Source of the DNA: Saccharopolyspora phatthalungensis
Lineage (GTDB): Bacteria; Actinomycetota; Actinomycetes; Mycobacteriales; Pseudonocardiaceae
Length of the DNA: 64,000 nt
Reading direction: 5' to 3'
Assembly (NCBI RefSeq): GCF_014203395.1
Contig: NZ_JACHIW010000001.1
Span: 1,302,001-1,366,000, forward strand
The notes below the pieces were generated by a model. That model was not told the DNA's origin and made no database searches. It worked only from the letters and a program-made list of their open reading frames with translations. The position numbers and the translations under genes were made by a program. The first letter of the stretch is position 1. Every line of letters begins with the position of its first letter. Below are positions 46,467 through 56,102 of the stretch, piece after piece.

Positions 46467-47075
46467 TCAGGCCGGTTCCAGCCCGGACAGTTGTTCGATC
46501 ACGTGGGCCACCAGCGGCGTCAGGGTGGCCATGCCGTCCCGGACCGAGGCTCGGGAACCCGCCAGATTCACCACCAGCGTGCTGCCGGAGACCCCGACCA
46601 GACCGCGCGACACACCCGCCTCGACGGCGCCCGCCGCCAGGCCCGAGGCCCGAAGCGCTTCCGCGATGCCCGGGACCGGGCGGTCCAGCACTCCTGCCGT
46701 CGCATCCGGCGTGACGTCCCGCGGCGACACCCCGGTGCCGCCGACGGTGATCACCACGTCCACCCCGCCGATCACTGCGGTGTTCAGCGCGTTGCGGATG
46801 TCCACTGTTTCCCCGGCCACCGCGACGGTCCCGTCGACGATGAAACCGGCCTCCTCCAACAACTCGGTCACCAGCGGACCGATGTTGTCTTCCTGCTCGC
46901 CCTGGGCGACCCGGTCGTCCACCACGACCACGAGGGCCCGCCCCAACCGCTGCGCGCTGCGTTCCATGCCGGTAACCGTAGTGCCAAGGAGCGTCCGGGT
47001 CAGGTCCGGTGAGCCGGTGAGATCGACCAGCCGACGAGCCCGATGTGGCACCACAGTGCCTCGTTTGTCGGACAT
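46467..47075 (-). CDS. moaB2: Molybdenum cofactor synthesis protein MogA/MoaB
   Basis: 202 residues from ATG 47075 with GGGAGG upstream. The MoCF domain shows VVDDRVAQGEQEDNIGPL and the catalytic loop GGTGVSPRDVTPDAT. An N-terminal extension of about 40 residues is longer than in E. coli MogA. Corresponds to Rv0984 (moaB2) by position, upstream of pepD. Confidence 0.85.
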   Translation of the reverse strand: MSDKRGTVVPHRARRLVDLTGSPDLTRTLLGTTVTGMERSAQRLGRALVVVVDDRVAQGEQEDNIGPLVTELLEEAGFIVDGTVAVAGETVDIRNALNTAVIGGVDVVITVGGTGVSPRDVTPDATAGVLDRPVPGIAEALRASGLAAGAVEAGVSRGLVGVSGSTLVVNLAGSRASVRDGMATLTPLVAHVIEQLSGLEPA

Positions 47076-47175
47076 GTTCCTCCCAGTGATGGTGGTGTGC
47101 GGTCTCATCGCGCACTGGTCTATCAGCGGAAATCTCAGCTGCCACATCGGTGTTGCCACATCGGTACGGACACAC

Positions 47176-47205
47176 GGCCCCCGGCTCTCGCGCATGCCGG
47201 GGGCC
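47176..47205 (-). terminator. HtrA gene terminator
   Basis: GGCCCCCGGC / GCCGGGGGCC, a perfect 10-bp stem around a 10-base loop. It lies about 90 bases past the htrA stop, in the 219-base gap before moaB2. Nothing else is seen in the gap. Confidence 0.6.
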
Positions 47206-47294: not shown

Positions 47295-48659
47295 TCACCC
47301 CTTCTGACCGGTCAGGGTGGCATCAGCGGTGCGATCCCCGCCGGACCCGGTGATGGTGATCCGCACCCGATCCCCGGGGGCGTGCGAGCGGACCGCAGCT
47401 ACCAGGGCATCGGCGTCCATGATCGATCGATCGTCCATTTTGGTGATCACATCGCCGGAGCGGATCCCGGCCTGTTCGGCGGGTCCACCGGGCACCACAT
47501 CGCGGACCTGCGCCCCCGCCTGCTGCGCGTTGCCGATCGTGACGCCCAGGGTCGTCTGGGTGGCCGAACCGGTGTCTTTCAACTCGGTGGCGATGCGCCG
47601 GGCCTGGTCGACCGGGATCGCGAAGCCGAGCCCGACCGAGCCGGCTTGCTCCTGACCCGAGCCGGGGCTGTAGATCGCGGAGTTGATGCCCACCACGTTG
47701 CCGTCCATGTCCACCAGCGGCCCGCCGGAGTTCCCGGGGTTGATCGCGGCGTCGGTCTGCAACGCGTCGAGCACGGATTCCTGGCTGCCTGACTCGCCGC
47801 CGGCCCGCACCGGCCGGTCCTTGGCGCTGATGATGCCGCTGGTCACGGTGCCGGAGAGGCCGAACGGCGAACCGATTGCCACCACCGCGGCGCCGACCGG
47901 CAGGTCGTCGCTGCGGCCTAGGTCGGCCGGGGTGAGCCCGGTGACATCGGCCTTGACCACCGCGAGGTCGGACTTCGGGTCGGTGCCGACGATCCGCACC
48001 GGCGCCGAGCGGTTGTCCTGGAACTGCGCGGTGACCTGACCACGACCTTGGCCGCCACCGTCGACAACGTGGTTGTTGGTGAGGATGTAGCCGTCGCTGC
48101 TGAGGATGATTCCGGAACCCTCACCGGCGCCGCGCCCGGTCACCACCTGCAGTTGCACGACGCTGGGCAGCACCTTCTCGGCAACCTGCTGCACCGAGCC
48201 CTGCGGCGCGGTGCTCGCGCTGCGCGCGGGGCGCGGTTGTTCCAGGGAAGTCACGGCACCCTTGTCGCCGCCGAGCTGGTATCCGACGTACCCGCCGACG
48301 CCGCCGCCGAGGAGTCCCGCCGCCAGAGCGAGCACCGCCGCCCCGGCGATCAGCCCGGTGTGCCGGTTCCGATGCTGCTGCATCGGGGCCATCGCCGTGT
48401 AGCCGCCGCCCGAGGGCCAGGATTGCGACTGAAACTGCTGGGTCGAATGCGGTGGTTGTGACTGGAAGGCCTGCTGGTGGGCCGACTGCTGATAGGTCGG
48501 CTGCTGATAAGCCGACTGCTCGTAATGCTGCTGCTGGTCCGGCTGTTGCTGCGGCACCCCGGCTGGTGGCATGTCGCCGGCGCCCGCGGCAGGCCCGTCC
48601 GCCTGCGGCTTCGGTTCGTCCGGCCGTTCGCCGTAGGAGCCCGGGGTGTGATCGGTCAT
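47295..48659 (-). CDS. pepD: HtrA-like trypsin-type serine protease with PDZ domain
   Basis: 454 residues from ATG 48659. The first 100 residues are Pro/Gln/Tyr-rich and cytoplasmic, then one membrane helix (LIAGAAVLALAAGLLGGGV). The protease domain carries His in LTNNHVVDG, Asp in KSDLAVVKAD and Ser in NPGNSGGPL. A PDZ domain ends the protein (VVPGGPAEQAGIRSGDVI). It degrades or refolds misfolded proteins outside the membrane. Homologous in position to Rv0983 (PepD), which MprAB controls; the repeat at 48682-48699 supports this. Confidence 0.9.
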   Translation of the reverse strand: MTDHTPGSYGERPDEPKPQADGPAAGAGDMPPAGVPQQQPDQQQHYEQSAYQQPTYQQSAHQQAFQSQPPHSTQQFQSQSWPSGGGYTAMAPMQQHRNRHTGLIAGAAVLALAAGLLGGGVGGYVGYQLGGDKGAVTSLEQPRPARSASTAPQGSVQQVAEKVLPSVVQLQVVTGRGAGEGSGIILSSDGYILTNNHVVDGGGQGRGQVTAQFQDNRSAPVRIVGTDPKSDLAVVKADVTGLTPADLGRSDDLPVGAAVVAIGSPFGLSGTVTSGIISAKDRPVRAGGESGSQESVLDALQTDAAINPGNSGGPLVDMDGNVVGINSAIYSPGSGQEQAGSVGLGFAIPVDQARRIATELKDTGSATQTTLGVTIGNAQQAGAQVRDVVPGGPAEQAGIRSGDVITKMDDRSIMDADALVAAVRSHAPGDRVRITITGSGGDRTADATLTGQKG

Positions 48660-48681
48660 GACTCCACTCTGCGCCAGTCGG

Positions 48682-48699
48682 CTGAGAAGTGCCTGAGAC
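48682..48699 (-). promoter_or_regulatory. Direct repeat, candidate MprA box upstream of pepD
   Basis: CTGAGAA at 48682-48688 and CTGAGAC at 48693-48699, starts 11 bases apart. They lie 23 bases upstream of the pepD start. The same pair occurs upstream of mprA (52913-52930). Confidence 0.65.
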
Positions 48700-48741
48700 C
48701 AGACTGTGGAGCAGCCTGATAACGCCGCCAAGTGGCGAGGA

Positions 48742-49815
48742 TCACCGCAACCTCGCGGCGATCTGCTCCGGCGTGACGTCGTTGATCCACACCGCCATGC
48801 CGGACTCCGAGCCGGCAAGGTACTTCAGCTTGTCCGCCGAGCGCAGCACCGAGAAGACCTCCAGGTGCAGCCAGGAAAGCTCCCGGTCGGCGCGCACCGG
48901 AGCCTGGTGCCAGGCCGCGATGTAGGGCAGCGGGCGGTCGTAGAGGCCGTCGAGGCGGCGCAGAACGTCCAGGTACGTCACCGCGAAGTCATCGCGTTCG
49001 GCGTCGGTGAGCGCCACGATGTCCGGCACCTGGCGGTGCGGCACCAGGTGCACCTCGACCGGCCAGCGCGCGGCGGCGGGCACGAAGGCGGTCCAGTGAT
49101 CGGACTCCACGATCACCCGGTCCCCGGCGGCGCGCTCGGCATTGAGCACGTCGCCCTGCACGTGCCGACCGTGCTGCGCCAGGTACTTCTCGGCTACCTG
49201 CAACATCTTCTCGGTCTTCGGCGTGATGAACGGGTAGCCGTAGATCTGGCCGTGCGGGTGGTGCAGCGTGACGCCGATCTCCTCACCGCGGTTCTCGAAG
49301 CAGAAAACCTGCTCCACACCGGGTGTTTCAGCGAGCGCGGCGGTCCGGTCGGCCCAGACGTCCACCACGGTGCGCACCTGGGCGGGGCTGAGCTTGCCGA
49401 ACGAGGAGTCGTGGTCGGAGGTGAAGCACACCACCTCGCAGCGGCCCCGCGCGGGCGCGGACGGCACCATCGGCATGCCCTCCACAGTGGACTCGCCGCC
49501 GGGGATTCCTTGTGCGAACGACGGGAACTGGTTCTCGAACACGACGACGTCGTAGTCCGATTCCGGGATCTCGGTGGGCCGCCCGGGGCTGCTCGGGCAC
49601 AGCGGGCAGAGTTCGGCCGGCGGCTTGTAGGTCCGCGACTGCCGGTGCGCGGCGATCGCCACCCATTCCCCGGTCAGCGGGTCCCGCCGCATTTCCGACG
49701 CCGGGGCCTGCGGGGGCAGGTCCCGGGTGTCCGCGGCCTCCCGGACCCGCGCCGGATCGGCGTCGAAGTAGATGATCTCGCGGCCATCGGCCAGGCGTCG
49801 CGCCGTCCGCTTCAC
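48742..49815 (-). CDS. galT: Galactose-1-phosphate uridylyltransferase
   Basis: 357 residues from a GTG at 49815 inside the stop overlap with the DeoR gene. The active site LHHPHGQIYGYPF has the nucleophilic His. CPLC near residue 70 and HLVPHR supply zinc ligands. Part of the Leloir pathway: UDP-glucose plus galactose-1-phosphate. galK and galE are not in the window. Coupled to a DeoR regulator, which it follows. Confidence 0.9.
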   Translation of the reverse strand: MKRTARRLADGREIIYFDADPARVREAADTRDLPPQAPASEMRRDPLTGEWVAIAAHRQSRTYKPPAELCPLCPSSPGRPTEIPESDYDVVVFENQFPSFAQGIPGGESTVEGMPMVPSAPARGRCEVVCFTSDHDSSFGKLSPAQVRTVVDVWADRTAALAETPGVEQVFCFENRGEEIGVTLHHPHGQIYGYPFITPKTEKMLQVAEKYLAQHGRHVQGDVLNAERAAGDRVIVESDHWTAFVPAAARWPVEVHLVPHRQVPDIVALTDAERDDFAVTYLDVLRRLDGLYDRPLPYIAAWHQAPVRADRELSWLHLEVFSVLRSADKLKYLAGSESGMAVWINDVTPEQIAARLR

Positions 49816-50606
49816 TGCTCCTCCTCTTCCGCATGCTGCTGATCGGCCAGCAGCAGCTCGACGTGCTCGGCCAGCACTTGGCGCGCGTCGGTCGGCAGGC
49901 CCTCGTCGCTGATCAGCAGATCGACCTCGGCGAAGTCGACGATCGTGGAGATCCCGACCGTCGACCACTTGGAGCTGTCGGCGACCACGACCAACCGGCC
50001 GGCCGCTTCGGCCAGCGCCCGGTTGGTCTCGCTCTCGCTGAGATTCGGGGTGGTGAAGCCCGCTCGCGGCGCCATCCCGTGCACCCCGAGGAACACCAGA
50101 TCCAGGTGCAGCGAGCGCAGCGACTGCACGGCGACGGGCCCGACCAACGCATCCGAGGGCGTGCGCACCCCGCCGGTGAGCACCACGGTGCGGTCGGTTC
50201 GGCCGCGCTGTTGCAGGGCGTCGGCTACCCGCACCGAGTTGGTCACCACCGTCAGATCGTTGACGTCGTCGAGGTGCCGCGCGAGGGTCCAGGTGGTGGT
50301 TCCGGCGGACAGGCCGATCGCGGTGCCCGGCCGGACCTGCTCGGCGGCCAGCCGCGCGATCGCTTCCTTCTCGGCGAGCTGGCGTACCGATTTGGCCTCG
50401 AAGCCCGGCTCGTCGGTGCTGCGGCCGATCATCGAAGTGGCCCCGCCGTAGACCTTTTCCACCAGGCCGCGCCGGGCCAGCGCGTCGAGGTCGCGGCGGA
50501 TCGTCATGTCGGACACGCCAAGCCGCAGCACCAGGTCGCCGACCTGGACCGCGCCGGTGCGCCGCACTTCGTCGAGGATCACTTCCTGGCGTTGCTTCGC
50601 GAGCAC
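49812..50606 (-). CDS. DeoR-family transcriptional regulator
   Basis: 264 residues from the GTG at 50606. HTH: VQVGDLVLRLGVSDMTIRRDL. The DeoR ligand domain follows (AIGLSAGTTTWTLARHL, and GVHGMAPRAGFTTPN). The open frame reaches 50774, but the family start QRQEVILDEV is at this GTG. Probably represses galT until a sugar phosphate binds. It sits between mprB and galT. Confidence 0.85.
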   Translation of the reverse strand: MLAKQRQEVILDEVRRTGAVQVGDLVLRLGVSDMTIRRDLDALARRGLVEKVYGGATSMIGRSTDEPGFEAKSVRQLAEKEAIARLAAEQVRPGTAIGLSAGTTTWTLARHLDDVNDLTVVTNSVRVADALQQRGRTDRTVVLTGGVRTPSDALVGPVAVQSLRSLHLDLVFLGVHGMAPRAGFTTPNLSESETNRALAEAAGRLVVVADSSKWSTVGISTIVDFAEVDLLISDEGLPTDARQVLAEHVELLLADQQHAEEEEQ

Positions 50607-50770
50607 TGCACCCCGTCCCCTCAAACCGCGCGGCGTGTTCGGCTCGTGAGCGAGATTCCCGCTCCTCCGCAAACGATCATGCACGGCCACCAAGCAAACA
50701 AGAACCAACACTACCCGAACAAATGACCACGGCGTGCGCGGCTCTCTACCGTGACGTTGGGACTTGCTGT

Positions 50771-52198
50771 TCATTGCTGTTCGATGTCCTGCGCTCGGCC
50801 GGGCAGCGACATGCGCAGCAACGCACCGCCCTCGGGCGCCTCACCGGCCCAGACCGTTCCGCCGTGCCGCTCGGCGACCTGCTTGACGATCGACAGGCCG
50901 AGCCCGGAGCCCGGCAGGGTCCGCGCGTCGGAGGAGCGGTAGAAGCGCTCGAAGACGTACGGCCGGTCCGCGGCGGCGATGCCGGGCCCGCCGTCGGCGA
51001 CCTCCAGCACGGTGTGGTCGGCGTCCTCCGGATGCAGCTCGACCCGCACCCGACCGCCGTCCGGACTCCACTTGGCGGCGTTGTCCAGCAGGTTGAGCAC
51101 CGCCCGTTCCAGGGCGGTGGCGTCGCCCATCATCACCCACGGCTCAAGGCGGACGTCGAACTCGATGCGCGGCGCCCGGCGCCTTGCCCGGCTCAGCGCC
51201 CGCTCCACGACGTCGATGAGGTCCACCGGTTCGTGCACCGCTTGCGGGGTGTCCTCCCTGGCCAGCTCGACGAGGTCGCCGACCAGCGCGGACAGCTCGG
51301 TCACCTGGGCCTGGACGTCGGCGAACATCTCCGCGCGGTCCTGCTCGGAGAGTTCCGGTGCGTTCGGCCGGGCCGAGGCCATCAGCAGTTCCAGGTTGGT
51401 GCGCAACGAGGTGAGCGGGGTGCGCAGCTCGTGTCCGGCGTCGGCGACCAGCCGCCGCTGCCGTTCCTGCGATTCGGCCAGGGCGCTGAGCATTCCGTTG
51501 AAGCTCGCGGTCAGGCGCGCGAGTTCGTCGTCGCCGCCCACCGGGATCGGCCGCAGGTCGCCGGTGAGCGCGACGCGCTCGGTCGCCGCGGTCAGCCGCT
51601 GCACCGGCCGCAACCCGGCGCGCGCGACCGCTGTCCCCGCCGCTGCGGCGAGCAGGATCCCGGCGCCGCCCATCACCACCAGCACAACGCTCAGCTGCGC
51701 GAGCGTGCGCTGCGTCTGTTGCAGCGACGTGGACATCACCAGCGCGGCGTTCTGCCCGGTCGGCACCGCGACCACACGGCTGTTGGTGCGCTGATCGGTG
51801 CGCAGCGAGTCGCGGGTCTCGCCCTTGGCGACCGCCAGTTCCGCGAGACTCATCGGCGGCCGATCGGCCGGACCGACCACGAGGCCGTCCGCGGACAGCA
51901 CGCTGATCTTGAAGTTCGCCGCGACGAAAAACGCCACCGGCACCTGCTGCAGGTCCGAGGTGCGCACCAGCGGGCCCTCGGCCGCTTCCACCGCGCGCTC
52001 GGTCAGGTTGTCGTCAATTTGCTGGTAGAGGCTGTCGCGCACGGTGACGAACGCCGCGACAGACACCAACGCGACCGCGCCCGCCACGCAGATCGCGGCC
52101 AGCCAGGTGACCCGGTTGCGCAGCGACACGCGCTGCAACCGACCCTTGGGGCTCGTCTGCTTGTCAAGGTCCGGCGGGGGTGGTGCGGGGATCGTCAC
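50771..52198 (-). CDS. mprB: Sensor histidine kinase MprB
   Basis: 475 residues from GTG 52198, overlapping the response regulator stop (GTGA). TM1 near 30-52, an extracytoplasmic sensor of about 115 residues, TM2 near 168-192, then HAMP. The phosphoacceptor His is in [13 protein letters not shown]. The ATP lid has [19 protein letters not shown] and [11 protein letters not shown]. With MprA it senses envelope stress. Same order as Rv0981-Rv0982. Confidence 0.9.
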
Positions 52199-52896
52199 GG
52201 CGGCGTCTCACGAAGCACGTAGCCGACGCCGCGGACGGTGTGGATCAACCGGGGCTCACCCTCGGCTTCGGTCTTGCGGCGCAGGTATCCGATGTAAACC
52301 TCCAGGGCGTTGCCCGAGGTCGGGAAGTCATAACCCCACACGTCCTCCAGCAGTCGGCTGCGGGTCAACACCTGCTTCGGGTGCGCCATCAGCAGCTCCA
52401 GCAGGGCGAACTCGGTGCGGGTCAGGCTGATCGGGCGCTCGCCGCGGCGGACCTCGCGGGTGCCGGGGTCCAGTTCCAGGTCGGCGAAGCGCAGCGCGGC
52501 CGGCTGCGCGTCCTGGCCGAGATCCGGCGGGCTGGCGCGGCGCAGCAGCGCGCGCAGCCGGGCGAGCAGCTCTTCGAGCGCGAACGGCTTGGGCAGGTAA
52601 TCGTCGGCGCCCGCGTCGAGCCCGGCGACCCGGTCGGACACCGCGTCGCGCGCGGTGAGCACCAGGATCGGCAGGTCGTCGCCGGTGCTGCGGAGGCGGC
52701 GTGCGACCTCCAGGCCGTCCAGGCGGGGCATCATCACGTCGAGCACCATGGCGTCCGGACGGTTGCCGGCCAGGAAGTCCAATGCCTGTTGACCGTCCGC
52801 GGCGAGCTCGACCTGGTACCCGTTGAACTGCAACGACCTTCGCAGGGATTCCCGCACGGCACGATCGTCGTCGACGACGAGGATGCGCATGGGCAC
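52195..52896 (-). CDS. mprA: OmpR-family response regulator MprA
   Basis: 233 residues. The receiver domain has acidic DDD near residue 10, the phospho-Asp in [12 protein letters not shown] and Lys in LPKPF. The winged helix C-terminus ends [14 protein letters not shown] 52896 has GGAG seven bases upstream; ATG 52890 is an alternative. It drives mprAB itself and probably pepD through the repeat motif found upstream of both. Confidence 0.92.
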
Positions 52897-52912
52897 AGTT
52901 TTACTCCTGGCC

Positions 52913-52930
52913 CTGAGAAGCAGCTGAGAA
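52913..52930 (-). promoter_or_regulatory. Direct repeat, candidate MprA box upstream of mprA
   Basis: CTGAGAA at 52913-52919 and again at 52924-52930, exact, starts 11 bases apart (one helical turn). Seventeen bases upstream of the mprA start. This spacing suits tandem binding of a response regulator on one DNA face. Confidence 0.65.
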
Positions 52931-53026: not shown

Positions 53027-53179
53027 TCACCGCTGCTGGAAGTGCCGGATGAGCGCGCGCGGCACCAGCTTGCGCTCGCCGTCGACGACGATCGGCACCA
53101 GATCCGGTGCCGTCGCCTTCCACTGCGATCGGCGGTGCCGAGTGTTGCTGCGGGACATCTTCCGCTTCGGAACGGCCAT
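53027..53179 (-). CDS. rpmF: Ribosomal protein L32 (zinc-independent form)
   Basis: 50 residues from ATG 53179 with AAAGGA upstream. Starts [20 protein letters not shown], the L32 signature. No cysteine, so it does not bind zinc. It is the last gene of the minus-strand arm of the Zur-controlled set, after L31 and the COG0523 gene. Corresponds to Rv0979A beside mprA. Confidence 0.92.
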
Positions 53180-53248
53180 GTCGGTCCTTTCGTGGTTGCG
53201 TCGAGGTAGTGCGTGGCCTTGGCCGCCCTGCCGCCCTTGCCACCGGCG

Positions 53249-53323
53249 CTAGAAATCGTGAGTGCTTCGGGATCTAGAAATCGTGAGTGCTTCGGGATTC
53301 AGCAGCGCCCCGAAGCACTCACG
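53249..53323 (-). repeat. Tandem 25-bp repeat plus inverted copy: duplicated terminator arm
   Basis: A 25-base unit occurs twice in tandem (53249-53273 and 53274-53298). Positions 53309-53323 (CCCGAAGCACTCACG) are the reverse complement of 15 bases of each copy. On the minus transcript the single arm comes first and can pair with either copy, giving a 15-bp stem with a 12-base loop or a longer loop. It lies between the L31 and L32 genes and probably attenuates or ends transcription. Confidence 0.8.
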
Positions 53324-53332
53324 GCCTGCTGC

Positions 53333-53584
53333 TCAGCGGGTGCGGTTGCCGTAGCGGCGGCGGAACTTCTCGACCCGCCCCTGGGTGTCGAGCACCCGCT
53401 GGTTGCCGGTCCAGAACGGGTGCGAGTACGCGGTCACATCGATCACGATCAGCGGGTATGAGTTGCCGTCCGACCACTCCGTCCGCGCGTCGGAGGTCGC
53501 GGTGGAGCGGGTCAGAAAGCGGTCTCCGGTGGTTCGGTCCTGGAACACGACCGGCCGGTACTCGGGATGGATTCCGGGCTTCAA
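53333..53584 (-). CDS. rpmE2: Ribosomal protein L31 type B (zinc-independent)
   Basis: 83 residues from a TTG at 53584 with GGAG upstream; no ATG or GTG precedes the family start [15 protein letters not shown]. It lacks the CxxC motif of zinc-binding L31, and the insertion typical of type B is present. It replaces the zinc form during zinc starvation, releasing zinc. Second gene after the COG0523 protein. Confidence 0.92.
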
Positions 53585-53645
53585 GGGATCTCCTTCGATG
53601 TGGGGGGCCGAAAGCGCGAACGCCGACTGGCGGCGGCGTTCGCCC

Positions 53646-54905
53646 TCACGACCGGTTGCCGCTTTCTCCGGTGGCGTCGGCGGTGCGCTCCGCCGGGTCG
53701 TCACCGCACGGGTCGGCGTGCCATTCGCCGAACGGGTCCTCGTAGCTCGCCCACGCGCGTTCGCCCGCAGCGAGCTCGTCGTCGGTGAGCAGGGCTTGAC
53801 GCAGGGCGCGGACGATGTCCTGCGGATCTGCCTCGTGGGCGATCACGACGAGCTCCTGCATCCGGTCGCCGTAGTAGTCGTCCCAGATCAGCGAGGCCCT
53901 GACCTGTCGTTCCGGCGAGACCTCGGCCCACAGGTCCCGCTCCATCGCGGTCAGCCACGGCCCGGCGTGCCCGACGCCGAGTCCGCCGCCGGCGGACTCC
54001 AGCCACAGCGCGACGTCCGGCTGGCTGGCGACCCAGACCCGCCCGCGAGTGCGCACCACGCCGTCCAGCAGCACGTCGACCGCCTCGTGCAGCCGTTGCG
54101 GGTGGAACGGGCGGCGCTCCTCGAACAGCACCATCGACACCCCGGCATCGGTGTCCAGCGACGGCTGTCCGCGCAGCAGCTGACCCTGCGGCCCGTCGAC
54201 CGCGCCGCGTCGCGCGCCCGCCGGCACCCTGGCCAGCATCCCGGCAAAGTCCAGTTCGTCGAGGTGCACGCTGGGCGCGGTGGGCGTCAGCCGGGCGATC
54301 ACGGCCTCGGTGCGCACCCGGTTCCAGCGATCGTCGGCGTGACCAGCGAGCACGATCGCATCGGCGAACTCGACCTGCCCCACCACGACCTGCGCGACGG
54401 TGCGCTCATCGTCCGCGCTGCCGCCGAGCCCTCGTTCGACGAGTTCCTCATCGCCGGTCGCATCGGCCAACCAGGTCGCCAGATCGACCGTGGTGACCAC
54501 GGCCCGAACCTCGATGTCGTCGACCAGCGGACGGCCGTCCACCAGGACGTGCTGTAACGCCCAGCAGATGGTCTCCGGTTCCAGCGCCGGGTCGAGCTGC
54601 ACGACGATCCGCCGCACATCGGGTGCGGCGGACAACCGGCGCAGCAACGGCAGCATGTCCCCGCGCAGCGTGCAGGAGACGCAACCATGTGCGAGCTCAA
54701 GGACCTCGGTGCTTTCGGCCTCGCCGTGGCGGACTAGCCGCCGGACGACGCCCTGGGTGACCTCGCGCAAGTCGTGGTGCACCAGCGCGGTGCCCACCGG
54801 GTCTTCCCGCCGCGCCGTTTCGGCGGCCGCCGCGACCTGCTCCGCGCGGATCCCGGCCACCATGATCAGCGGAATCCGCCGGTTCGCGGACGACTCGGTT
54901 CCCAT
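53646..54905 (-). CDS. COG0523/CobW-like protein of the Zur regulon, GTPase motifs degenerate
   Basis: 419 residues from ATG 54905, with GAGG five bases upstream. The G3E GTPase outline is present: [11 protein letters not shown] corresponds to the GCxxC metal site, and a CobW C-terminal domain lies at about 270-380. But the P-loop position reads [11 protein letters not shown] without GKS/T, and the NKxD position reads AGHADD. In mycobacteria the Zur-regulated C-minus ribosomal operon also carries COG0523-related genes. It could be a zinc chaperone or a ribosome hibernation factor; GTP hydrolysis is doubtful. Confidence 0.75.
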
Positions 54906-54970
54906 CCCCACCTCAATCGACAACGGTTTTCATCTGACGCGACGACACGCTACTCTCGACGGCATCAAAA

Positions 54971-54985
54971 TGAAAATGGATATCA
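54971..54985. promoter_or_regulatory. Zur box
   Basis: TGAAAATGGATATCA, a 7-1-7 dyad of the kind bound by actinobacterial Zur, inside a run AAAATGAAAATGGATATCATTA. It is 18 bases before the rpmB2 start and 66 before the divergent COG0523 gene, so it can control both arms. Confidence 0.8.
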
Positions 54986-55002
54986 TTATCGAGAGGTAGG
55001 TC

Positions 55003-55239
55003 ATGTCCATCCGCTGCCAGGTGACCGGGAAGAAACCCGGCTACGGCAACCAGGTCTCCCACTCGAACCACCGCACCCGCCGCCGCTGGTTGCCCAACGT
55101 GCAACGGCGTCGCTACTGGCTGCCATCCGAAGGCCGCTGGATCCGGCTGCGCGTGTCGACGAAGGGGATGAAGACGATCGAGAAGCGGGGCATCGACGCC
55201 GTGGTGGCCGAGATGCGAGCGCGAGGGGAGCGCATCTGA
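55003..55239 (+). CDS. rpmB2: Ribosomal protein L28 (alternative, zinc-independent)
   Basis: 78 residues. Starts [20 protein letters not shown] and contains [13 protein letters not shown]. Only one Cys remains, so the zinc knuckle of the C-plus form is absent. First gene of a four-gene unit under the Zur box. Its stop overlaps the L33 start (TGATG). Confidence 0.92.
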
Positions 55240-55406
55240 TGGCCAAGAGCACCGACGTCCGCCCGGTGATCAAGCTGCGGTCCACGGCCGGCACCGGCTT
55301 CACCTACGTGACCACCAAGAACCGCCGCAATAACCCGGACCGCCTGGTCCTGCGCAAGTACGACCCGGTGGCCCGCAAGCACGTCGAGTTCCGCGAAGAA
55401 CGGTGA
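55239..55406 (+). CDS. rpmG: Ribosomal protein L33 (zinc-independent)
   Basis: 55 residues. [20 protein letters not shown] is the L33 signature. No cysteine pairs. ATG 55239 overlaps the L28 stop. A 147-base gap precedes S14; no feature is evident in that gap. Confidence 0.92.
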
Positions 55407-55553
55407 TCTGGGGTTTTCCAGACACCTGTTGCTTAGCGGTGCCGTGGATAGCCGCTTGGACTGCGGGATCCCCGACCTGCGTATGACCTCGTTCGTGAGT
55501 GGGCGTTCTGGAGCGACCGCGCACGAGCCCTGAGCATGGAAAGGAACGGCCGA

Positions 55554-55859
55554 GTGGCCAAGAAGTCCAAGATCGCGCGCAACGAACAGCGCCGCGAGAT
55601 CGTCGCCCGCTACGCGCAGCGACGAGCCGAGTTGAAGGAAATCATCGTCACGCCCGGCAGCAGCCCCGAGCAACGCGTTGCCGCGCAGCGCGAGCTGCAG
55701 CGCCAGCCGCGCGACGCAAGCCGAGTCCGGGTGCGCAACCGCGACGCGGTCGACGGGCGTCCGCGCGGCTACTTCCGCAAGTTCGGCGTCTCCCGGGTGC
55801 GCCTGCGCGAGCTGGCGCATTCCGGGGAACTGCCCGGTGTGACGAAATCGAGTTGGTAA
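55554..55859 (+). CDS. rpsN2: Ribosomal protein S14 (zinc-independent)
   Basis: 101 residues from GTG 55554, with AAAGGA eight bases upstream. It is the long S14 form without the CxxC-CxxC ribbon of the short zinc form. [20 protein letters not shown] is the diagnostic region. Followed after 3 bases by S18. Confidence 0.92.
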
Positions 55860-55862
55860 GCC

Positions 55863-56102
55863 ATGGCCAACACCGATCGGCGCAGCTACCGCCGCAAACC
55901 CAACCTGCTGCAACGCGAAGGCGTCGTGGAGGTGGACTGGAAGGACACGGCGCTGCTGCGCAAGTTCCTGTCCGACCGGGGCAAGATCCGGTCGCGCCGC
56001 GTCACCGGCCTGACCACGCAGGAGCAGCGCGAGGTCGCAAAGGCGATCAAGAACGCCCGCGAAATGGCCCTCCTCCCCTACCCCTGCAACGGCCGCAAGT
56101 GA
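55863..56102 (+). CDS. rpsR2: Ribosomal protein S18 (zinc-independent)
   Basis: 79 residues. [20 protein letters not shown] replaces the Cys-containing start of ordinary S18. [19 protein letters not shown] is the family core. Last gene of the Zur-controlled plus arm; a hairpin follows. Confidence 0.92.

Follow-up and report, generated by a model that had tools for sequence, protein, structure and literature searches.

The two direct repeats that precede the stress-regulator gene mprA and the quality-control protease gene pepD in a 64-kb window of Saccharopolyspora phatthalungensis DNA (by window we mean the whole stretch that was analysed, taken from a source genome of 8.54 Mb in 6 contigs) are, to judge from sequence, very probably operators of MprA, the response regulator of the MprAB two-component system. 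A pattern scan of the whole window returned exact copies of CTGAGAM-N4-CTGAGAM on the plus strand at 48682-48699, before pepD, and at 52913-52930, before mprA; with up to two mismatches allowed there are 4 matches against 1.10 expected. Both genes lie on the minus strand, so that in gene orientation the half-site reads (T)TCTCAG, and the layout at each is TCTCAG-N5-TCTCAG, 10 bases, a -10-like hexamer with A in second and T in sixth position, 6 bases and ATG. The sequence-only reading of this DNA, in which the repeats were pointed out, was right about their existence, their 11-bp period and their equal orientation; the distances that it gave, 17 bases to mprA and 23 to pepD, were in error, each box being located 22 bases upstream of its ATG (mprA, 52890; pepD, 48659). 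The elements concerned are the following.

52913-52930, minus strand: predicted MprA-type operator of mprA, gene strand TTCTCAG-CTGC-TTCTCAG, two half-sites at an 11-bp period, from the alignment of 60 family orthologues
52897-52902, minus strand: predicted -10 hexamer of mprA, AAAACT, 10 bases from the proximal half-site, with A at position 2 and T at position 6 in 60/60
52195-52890, minus strand: mprA, OmpR/PhoB-type response regulator (Pfam Response_reg and Trans_reg_C), predicted to be leaderless (A of ATG as +1)
50771-52198, minus strand: mprB, sensor kinase (HAMP, HisKA, HATPase_c) overlapping the end of mprA
48682-48699, minus strand: predicted MprA-type operator of pepD, gene strand GTCTCAG-GCAC-TTCTCAG, layout in 53/60 family genomes
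48666-48671, minus strand: predicted -10 hexamer of pepD, CAGAGT, 10 bases from the box and 6 from the ATG
47295-48659, minus strand: pepD, HtrA-family serine protease with PDZ domain (family models)

The regulator gene encodes an OmpR-type response regulator and adjoins a HAMP histidine kinase gene (Pfam), which fits an MprAB system. None of the NCBIfam matches listed for regulator or kinase (best 25 of 97, best 25 of 80) is at or above its cut-off, and the name MprA therefore rests on orthology and gene order. The best matches to the mprA product in 60 family genomes have 81-100% protein identity; at order level the window MprA is 80-83% identical to 14 matches in order family f8, one of which, in G168, is up to 97% identical to a named Mycobacterium. 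Downstream of mprA in the named loci L229-L255 a tblastn search found mprB in 27/27 and pepD in 16/27, and in 15 of the 16 named loci having both the pepD match begins no more than 0.91 kb from the end of the mprB match. In the window, mprB and pepD are separated by galT and a gene for a DeoR-family regulator (Pfam), at 48742-50774.

One mprA orthologue was aligned from each of the 60 family genomes, the source genome included (genomes and loci are referred to by G and L numbers where they must be told apart), giving the consensus (T)TCTCAG-N5-TCTCAG-N10-[A]A[CG]ACT-N6-ATG. Positions 2, 4 and 6 of the hexamer are A, A and T in 60/60, a G is present two bases before the hexamer in 52/60, and the hexamer-to-ATG distance is 6 in 54/60 and 7 in 6/60. 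Because a -10-like element stands 6-7 bases before the downstream ATG in every one of these orthologues, a GTG further upstream, at 52896, is an unlikely start for mprA. A fixed rule (two half-sites with no more than 3 mismatches in total, N10, NANNNT, 6-7 bases, ATG or GTG) is passed by 53/60 mprA loci, 35 of them with both halves exact, and at pepD by 53/60 genomes, 24 of them exact; since the rules were written after the same loci had been seen, these rates should be read as describing the layout and not as a blind test. Controls on reversed sequence and on the other strand gave 0 matches for either gene. Of the 7 mprA loci that fail, 6 carry GTTAAG in the distal half and the remaining one carries TCTTAA in the proximal half; the -10 element is kept in all of them. 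The pepD hexamer is more variable than that of mprA (CACAGT in 15, CATGGT in 8, CAGAGT in 7 and others in 23; n=53). The layout count covered 1900 bases from the start of each locus, and a second scan of five long pepD stretches over their full length brought no match, leaving the totals at 53/60. For pepD of G021, G040, G004, G042, G050 and G057 wider or other stretches were used, upon which G021 passed, and all 60 rows were kept. Upstream of mprA, G029 (L046) of the family agrees with L244, a named Goodfellowiella locus, from which the family would appear to be Pseudonocardiaceae. Conservation of the repeat upstream of orthologues, which the sequence-only reading had made a point of, is thus found for both genes in most genomes of the family, and also in most named loci of mycobacteria, Nocardia and Rhodococcus that were looked at. 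It is because its place is kept in most of the relatives examined that the 11-base-period word is very probably a docking site of MprA.

Whole-genome pattern counts are independent of the fixed rules and also of a weight matrix, which was trained on the mprA set and whose mprA scores are therefore circular. The search pattern that had been proposed along with the repeats, CTGAGAM-N4-CTGAGAM, gives at no more than one mismatch 7 matches in the source genome versus 0 for the reversed pattern. When N10 and NANNNT are added to the box only mprA and pepD are obtained at 0 mismatches, and 14 sites versus 3 for the control at up to two. The half-site pair by itself is unspecific at that stringency (181 versus 122 in the control), for which reason a regulon based on it was rejected. 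Exact boxes number 43 versus 0 reversed in 10 genomes and 31 versus 2 in 10 more, or 74 versus 2 in 20 relatives. Boxes were placed one by one, by position or neighbouring protein, for the 43 of the first 10 genomes, and 38 of these are at mprA, pepD, sigE, sigB, arabinosyltransferase or DsbA-like genes, or at a second, paralogous OmpR-type response regulator gene that we call RR2 (G000:C1:1064353-1065072), with 5 left unplaced.

Six exact places are found in the source genome, before sigE, pepD, mprA and a LolA-like gene and, twice, between RR2 and a pterin dehydratase gene; those with one mismatch include sigB, an Emb-type arabinosyltransferase gene, a DsbA-like thioredoxin gene and others without a clear target. 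Family models were applied to genes of the source genome, where SigE scores 355.7 bits against an NCBIfam cut-off of 265, and the sigB, Emb and DsbA genes of relatives were read by eye. The sigE gene is present in the 60 family genomes and 30 loci were taken for the layout count; all 30 have a four-repeat layout, 29 with an exact first pair, as compared to 0 in the control. The third and fourth repeat-like positions continue the 11-bp period in 30/30, the fourth standing 10 bases before NANNNT, and the box ends 86-269 bases before the protein match. At sigB the box has 1 mismatch in the source genome (NCBIfam SigB) and is exact in 4 of the first 10 genomes. These further sites fit the known MprA-SigE-SigB-HtrA network.

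In four genomes inverted TCTCAG repeats also stand before Emb-type arabinosyltransferase genes (L014, G000:C1:1854016-1854043; L347, L355, L371 and L373), the source-genome copy (Pfam) having three half-sites and the genes at the latter four loci being assigned by eye. Similar inverted repeats precede a DsbA-like gene at L019 (G000:C1:3579284-3579311; Pfam) and at L374, where a VKOR-like gene, again by eye, follows the DsbA-like one.

With the hexamer taken as -12 to -7, +1 would coincide with the ATG and the box would span roughly -39 to -23; the mRNAs of mprA and pepD are accordingly predicted to be leaderless. The N10 spacing at mprA, pepD and sigE corresponds to a class II geometry of the PhoB type, with the operator in the -35 region at a fixed distance from the -10 hexamer. 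Most likely, phosphorylated MprA would bind the tandem repeat in head-to-tail order along a single face of the double helix, cover the -35 region and, in the manner of PhoB, recruit RNA polymerase with a housekeeping-type sigma factor. The mprAB genes would then be positively autoregulated through their own box, and pepD, although now separated from mprB by the DeoR-family and galT genes, would be activated in parallel from its own promoter. Together with the four-copy operator at sigE and the one-mismatch version at sigB this would make up an envelope-stress circuit. Direct regulation of sigE, sigB and pepD is described for MprAB of M. tuberculosis (PMC3062566), binding to the mprA, sigE, htrA and sigB promoters with positive autoregulation for MprA of C. 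glutamicum (PMC12113857), and increased mprAB and sigE expression in response to phosphorylated MprA (PMC8605609).

The layout extends beyond the family. At order level 41/121 genomes have an mprA match at E 1e-78, and 14 of the 20 such loci examined pass the fixed rule while 6 fail. Among the named loci L229-L257 18/29 pass, made up of 16/18 of L229-L246 and two Nocardioides. Those passing within L229-L246 are from Mycobacterium, Mycobacteroides, Mycolicibacterium, Nocardia, Rhodococcus, Rhodococcoides, Corynebacterium xerosis, Goodfellowiella and a Pseudonocardiales bin, the failures being Gordonia, with 11 bases to the hexamer, and Dietzia, where the box is degenerate; the layout was not seen in L259. 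A further box with N10 and hexamer occurs 2.1-3.3 kb downstream in 14/18 of L229-L246, and pepD was found there in 13 of the 14. In the mycobacterial examples near pepD the start codon is further from the box than in the family of the window, and a leaderless pepD therefore looks special to that family.

Besides the after-the-fact origin of the fixed rule, several observations weigh against assigning the boxes to MprA in so simple a manner. The pepD layout is absent from the stretches taken for G040, G004, G042 and G050, in G057 the gene itself was not located, and in G002 and G048 the distal half of its box is degenerate; the genome-wide pattern scan found no exact box in G002. In the source genome the third copy of the sigE array is degenerate, and no -10 element at N10 is apparent at sigB. 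None of nine loci from actinobacteria outside the group (three Propionibacteriaceae, Nonomuraea, Micromonospora, Actinoplanes, Streptomyces and two uncultured lineages) passes the rule. According to a review (PMC10027907) the mprAB promoter of M. tuberculosis is under SigE control and MprA boxes lie at sigE P1, which MprA turns off as it turns on a leaderless, SigE-dependent P2; neither simple activation at sigE nor a purely housekeeping promoter at mprA agrees well with these statements. Finally, a second response regulator has the same box.

That regulator, RR2, provides the strongest alternative, to which we give somewhat less than an even chance, namely that RR2 reads the same TCTCAG repeat and that the boxes form an operator shared by two paralogous systems, only some of them belonging to MprA. 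With a presence cut-off of E 1e-70 RR2 is found in 53/60 family genomes. In each of the 30 RR2 loci taken there is an exact box, inverted, often doubled and facing a divergent gene, and NANNNT follows at 11 bases from the box in 27/30 and at 10 in 1/30. The divergent gene resembles the LolA-like gene in 27/30, whereas the pterin dehydratase gene occurs in only 2/30 and was rejected as a conserved RR2 target. The window MprA is 43% identical to RR2 of G012, and in the source genome MprA and RR2 have a 13-letter protein stretch in common within the putative recognition helix. Three of the 7 genomes without an RR2 match have a LolA-like match, and the box precedes that gene in 0/3, so that the LolA-like target more likely belongs to RR2, as far as so few genomes can indicate. 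On the other hand, G005, G010, G035 and G046 lack an RR2 match and keep an exact mprA box, which means that RR2 is not the sole reader; in some of the 7 genomes RR2 may have diverged beyond the reach of the cut-off, a count of three genomes is small, and the LolA label is weak, with 21.8 bits against a Pfam cut-off of 23.6 and 26.5 against 112 for NCBIfam. Rather tentatively, MprAB and RR2 might read one TCTCAG operator and be told apart by one base in the distance from box to -10 element, which is 10 for MprA (mprA, pepD, sigE) and 11 for RR2 (LolA-like), in a shared envelope-stress network that also takes in the arabinosyltransferase, DsbA-like and sigma factor genes. The proposal in the sequence-only reading that the box predicts a regulon holds insofar as further sites occur at the reported MprA targets sigE and sigB; a regulon drawn from the motif alone, however, would take in sites at which RR2, having the same half-site, may be the true reader.

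It is very improbable that the word acts in mRNA, as a leader or translation signal, and not as a DNA operator. Its proximity to the start codons of mprA and pepD could be taken that way, yet a -10-like hexamer lies between box and ATG with only 6-7 bases left, so that the box would remain untranscribed from that promoter; at sigE the box is well removed from the protein match, and at RR2 and the arabinosyltransferase gene it faces the opposite way. Chance we regard as negligible, for although the pair at up to two mismatches is common in the source genome, exact boxes far outnumber the control in the 20 relatives and their place is fixed at mprA and pepD where controls give no match.

Returning to the neighbourhood of the two MprA-type operators, a ribosomal protein gene cluster at 53027-56102 (L31 and S14 by Pfam; L32, L28, L33 and S18 by eye) surrounds a CobW-type gene (Pfam) and is of the kind known from zinc-starvation control. 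At 53251-53330 there are two tandem copies of an approximately 25-base word, ctagaaatcgtgagtgcttcgggat, and after them an incomplete copy in inverted orientation, ccccgaagcactcac, possibly a terminator between the L32- and L31-type genes. Directly after pepD, at 46467-47195, there is a MoCF_biosynth (MoaB2-like) gene; sigma A binding has been reported for MoaB2 of M. smegmatis (PMC11656743).

The finding is ordinary in kind, an MprA operator in a non-mycobacterial lineage, with a small set of envelope-stress genes known in outline from mycobacteria and corynebacteria. The analysis adds the strict promoter geometry, the prediction of leaderless mRNAs, the breadth of the conservation, the array at sigE and a second regulator that may act on this operator. 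Judged by titles and the first lines of abstracts, the layout is not described in the papers listed by the literature searches, and overlap with two primary M. tuberculosis papers is possible. A motif reported as loosely conserved thus becomes a strict promoter layout that can be searched for in relatives of mycobacteria, and the results suggest that the MprA-SigE-SigB-HtrA envelope-stress circuit predates the mycobacteria. They also raise the question of what separates the targets of two regulators whose recognition helices are alike and whose operator is the same.

A close parallel in design is the pho box of PhoB, where an OmpR-family protein reads 11-bp tandem repeats and the box replaces the -35 element about 10 bases before the -10; the half-site is a different one, and the promoters described here are predicted to be leaderless at mprA and pepD. 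The MprA box of M. tuberculosis is reportedly a tandem direct repeat as well (He and Zahrt, 2005) and is said to be loosely conserved, in contrast to the strict half-site, 11-bp period and 10 bases to the -10 element at mprA in the present family, a comparison made by description only. MprA autoregulation together with control of pepD, sigE and sigB, as in M. tuberculosis (targets from PMC3062566), is predicted here too. The C. glutamicum motif TKTTAAGAAM (PMC12113857) stands at the same set of promoters as our sites, for which binding and positive autoregulation are predicted likewise, and its core, KTTAAG, resembles the half-site variants GTTAAG and TTTAAG seen here; it is published as a single 10-bp motif, whereas the unit here is two half-sites at 11 bp. 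Streptomyces CutR is likewise a response regulator of htrA-family genes in secretion stress (PMC12802291), but we rejected it as the regulator in question, its site being TAWATAAA, a short single site unrelated to the conserved TCTCAG repeat, with no in vitro binding found at the cutRS promoter.

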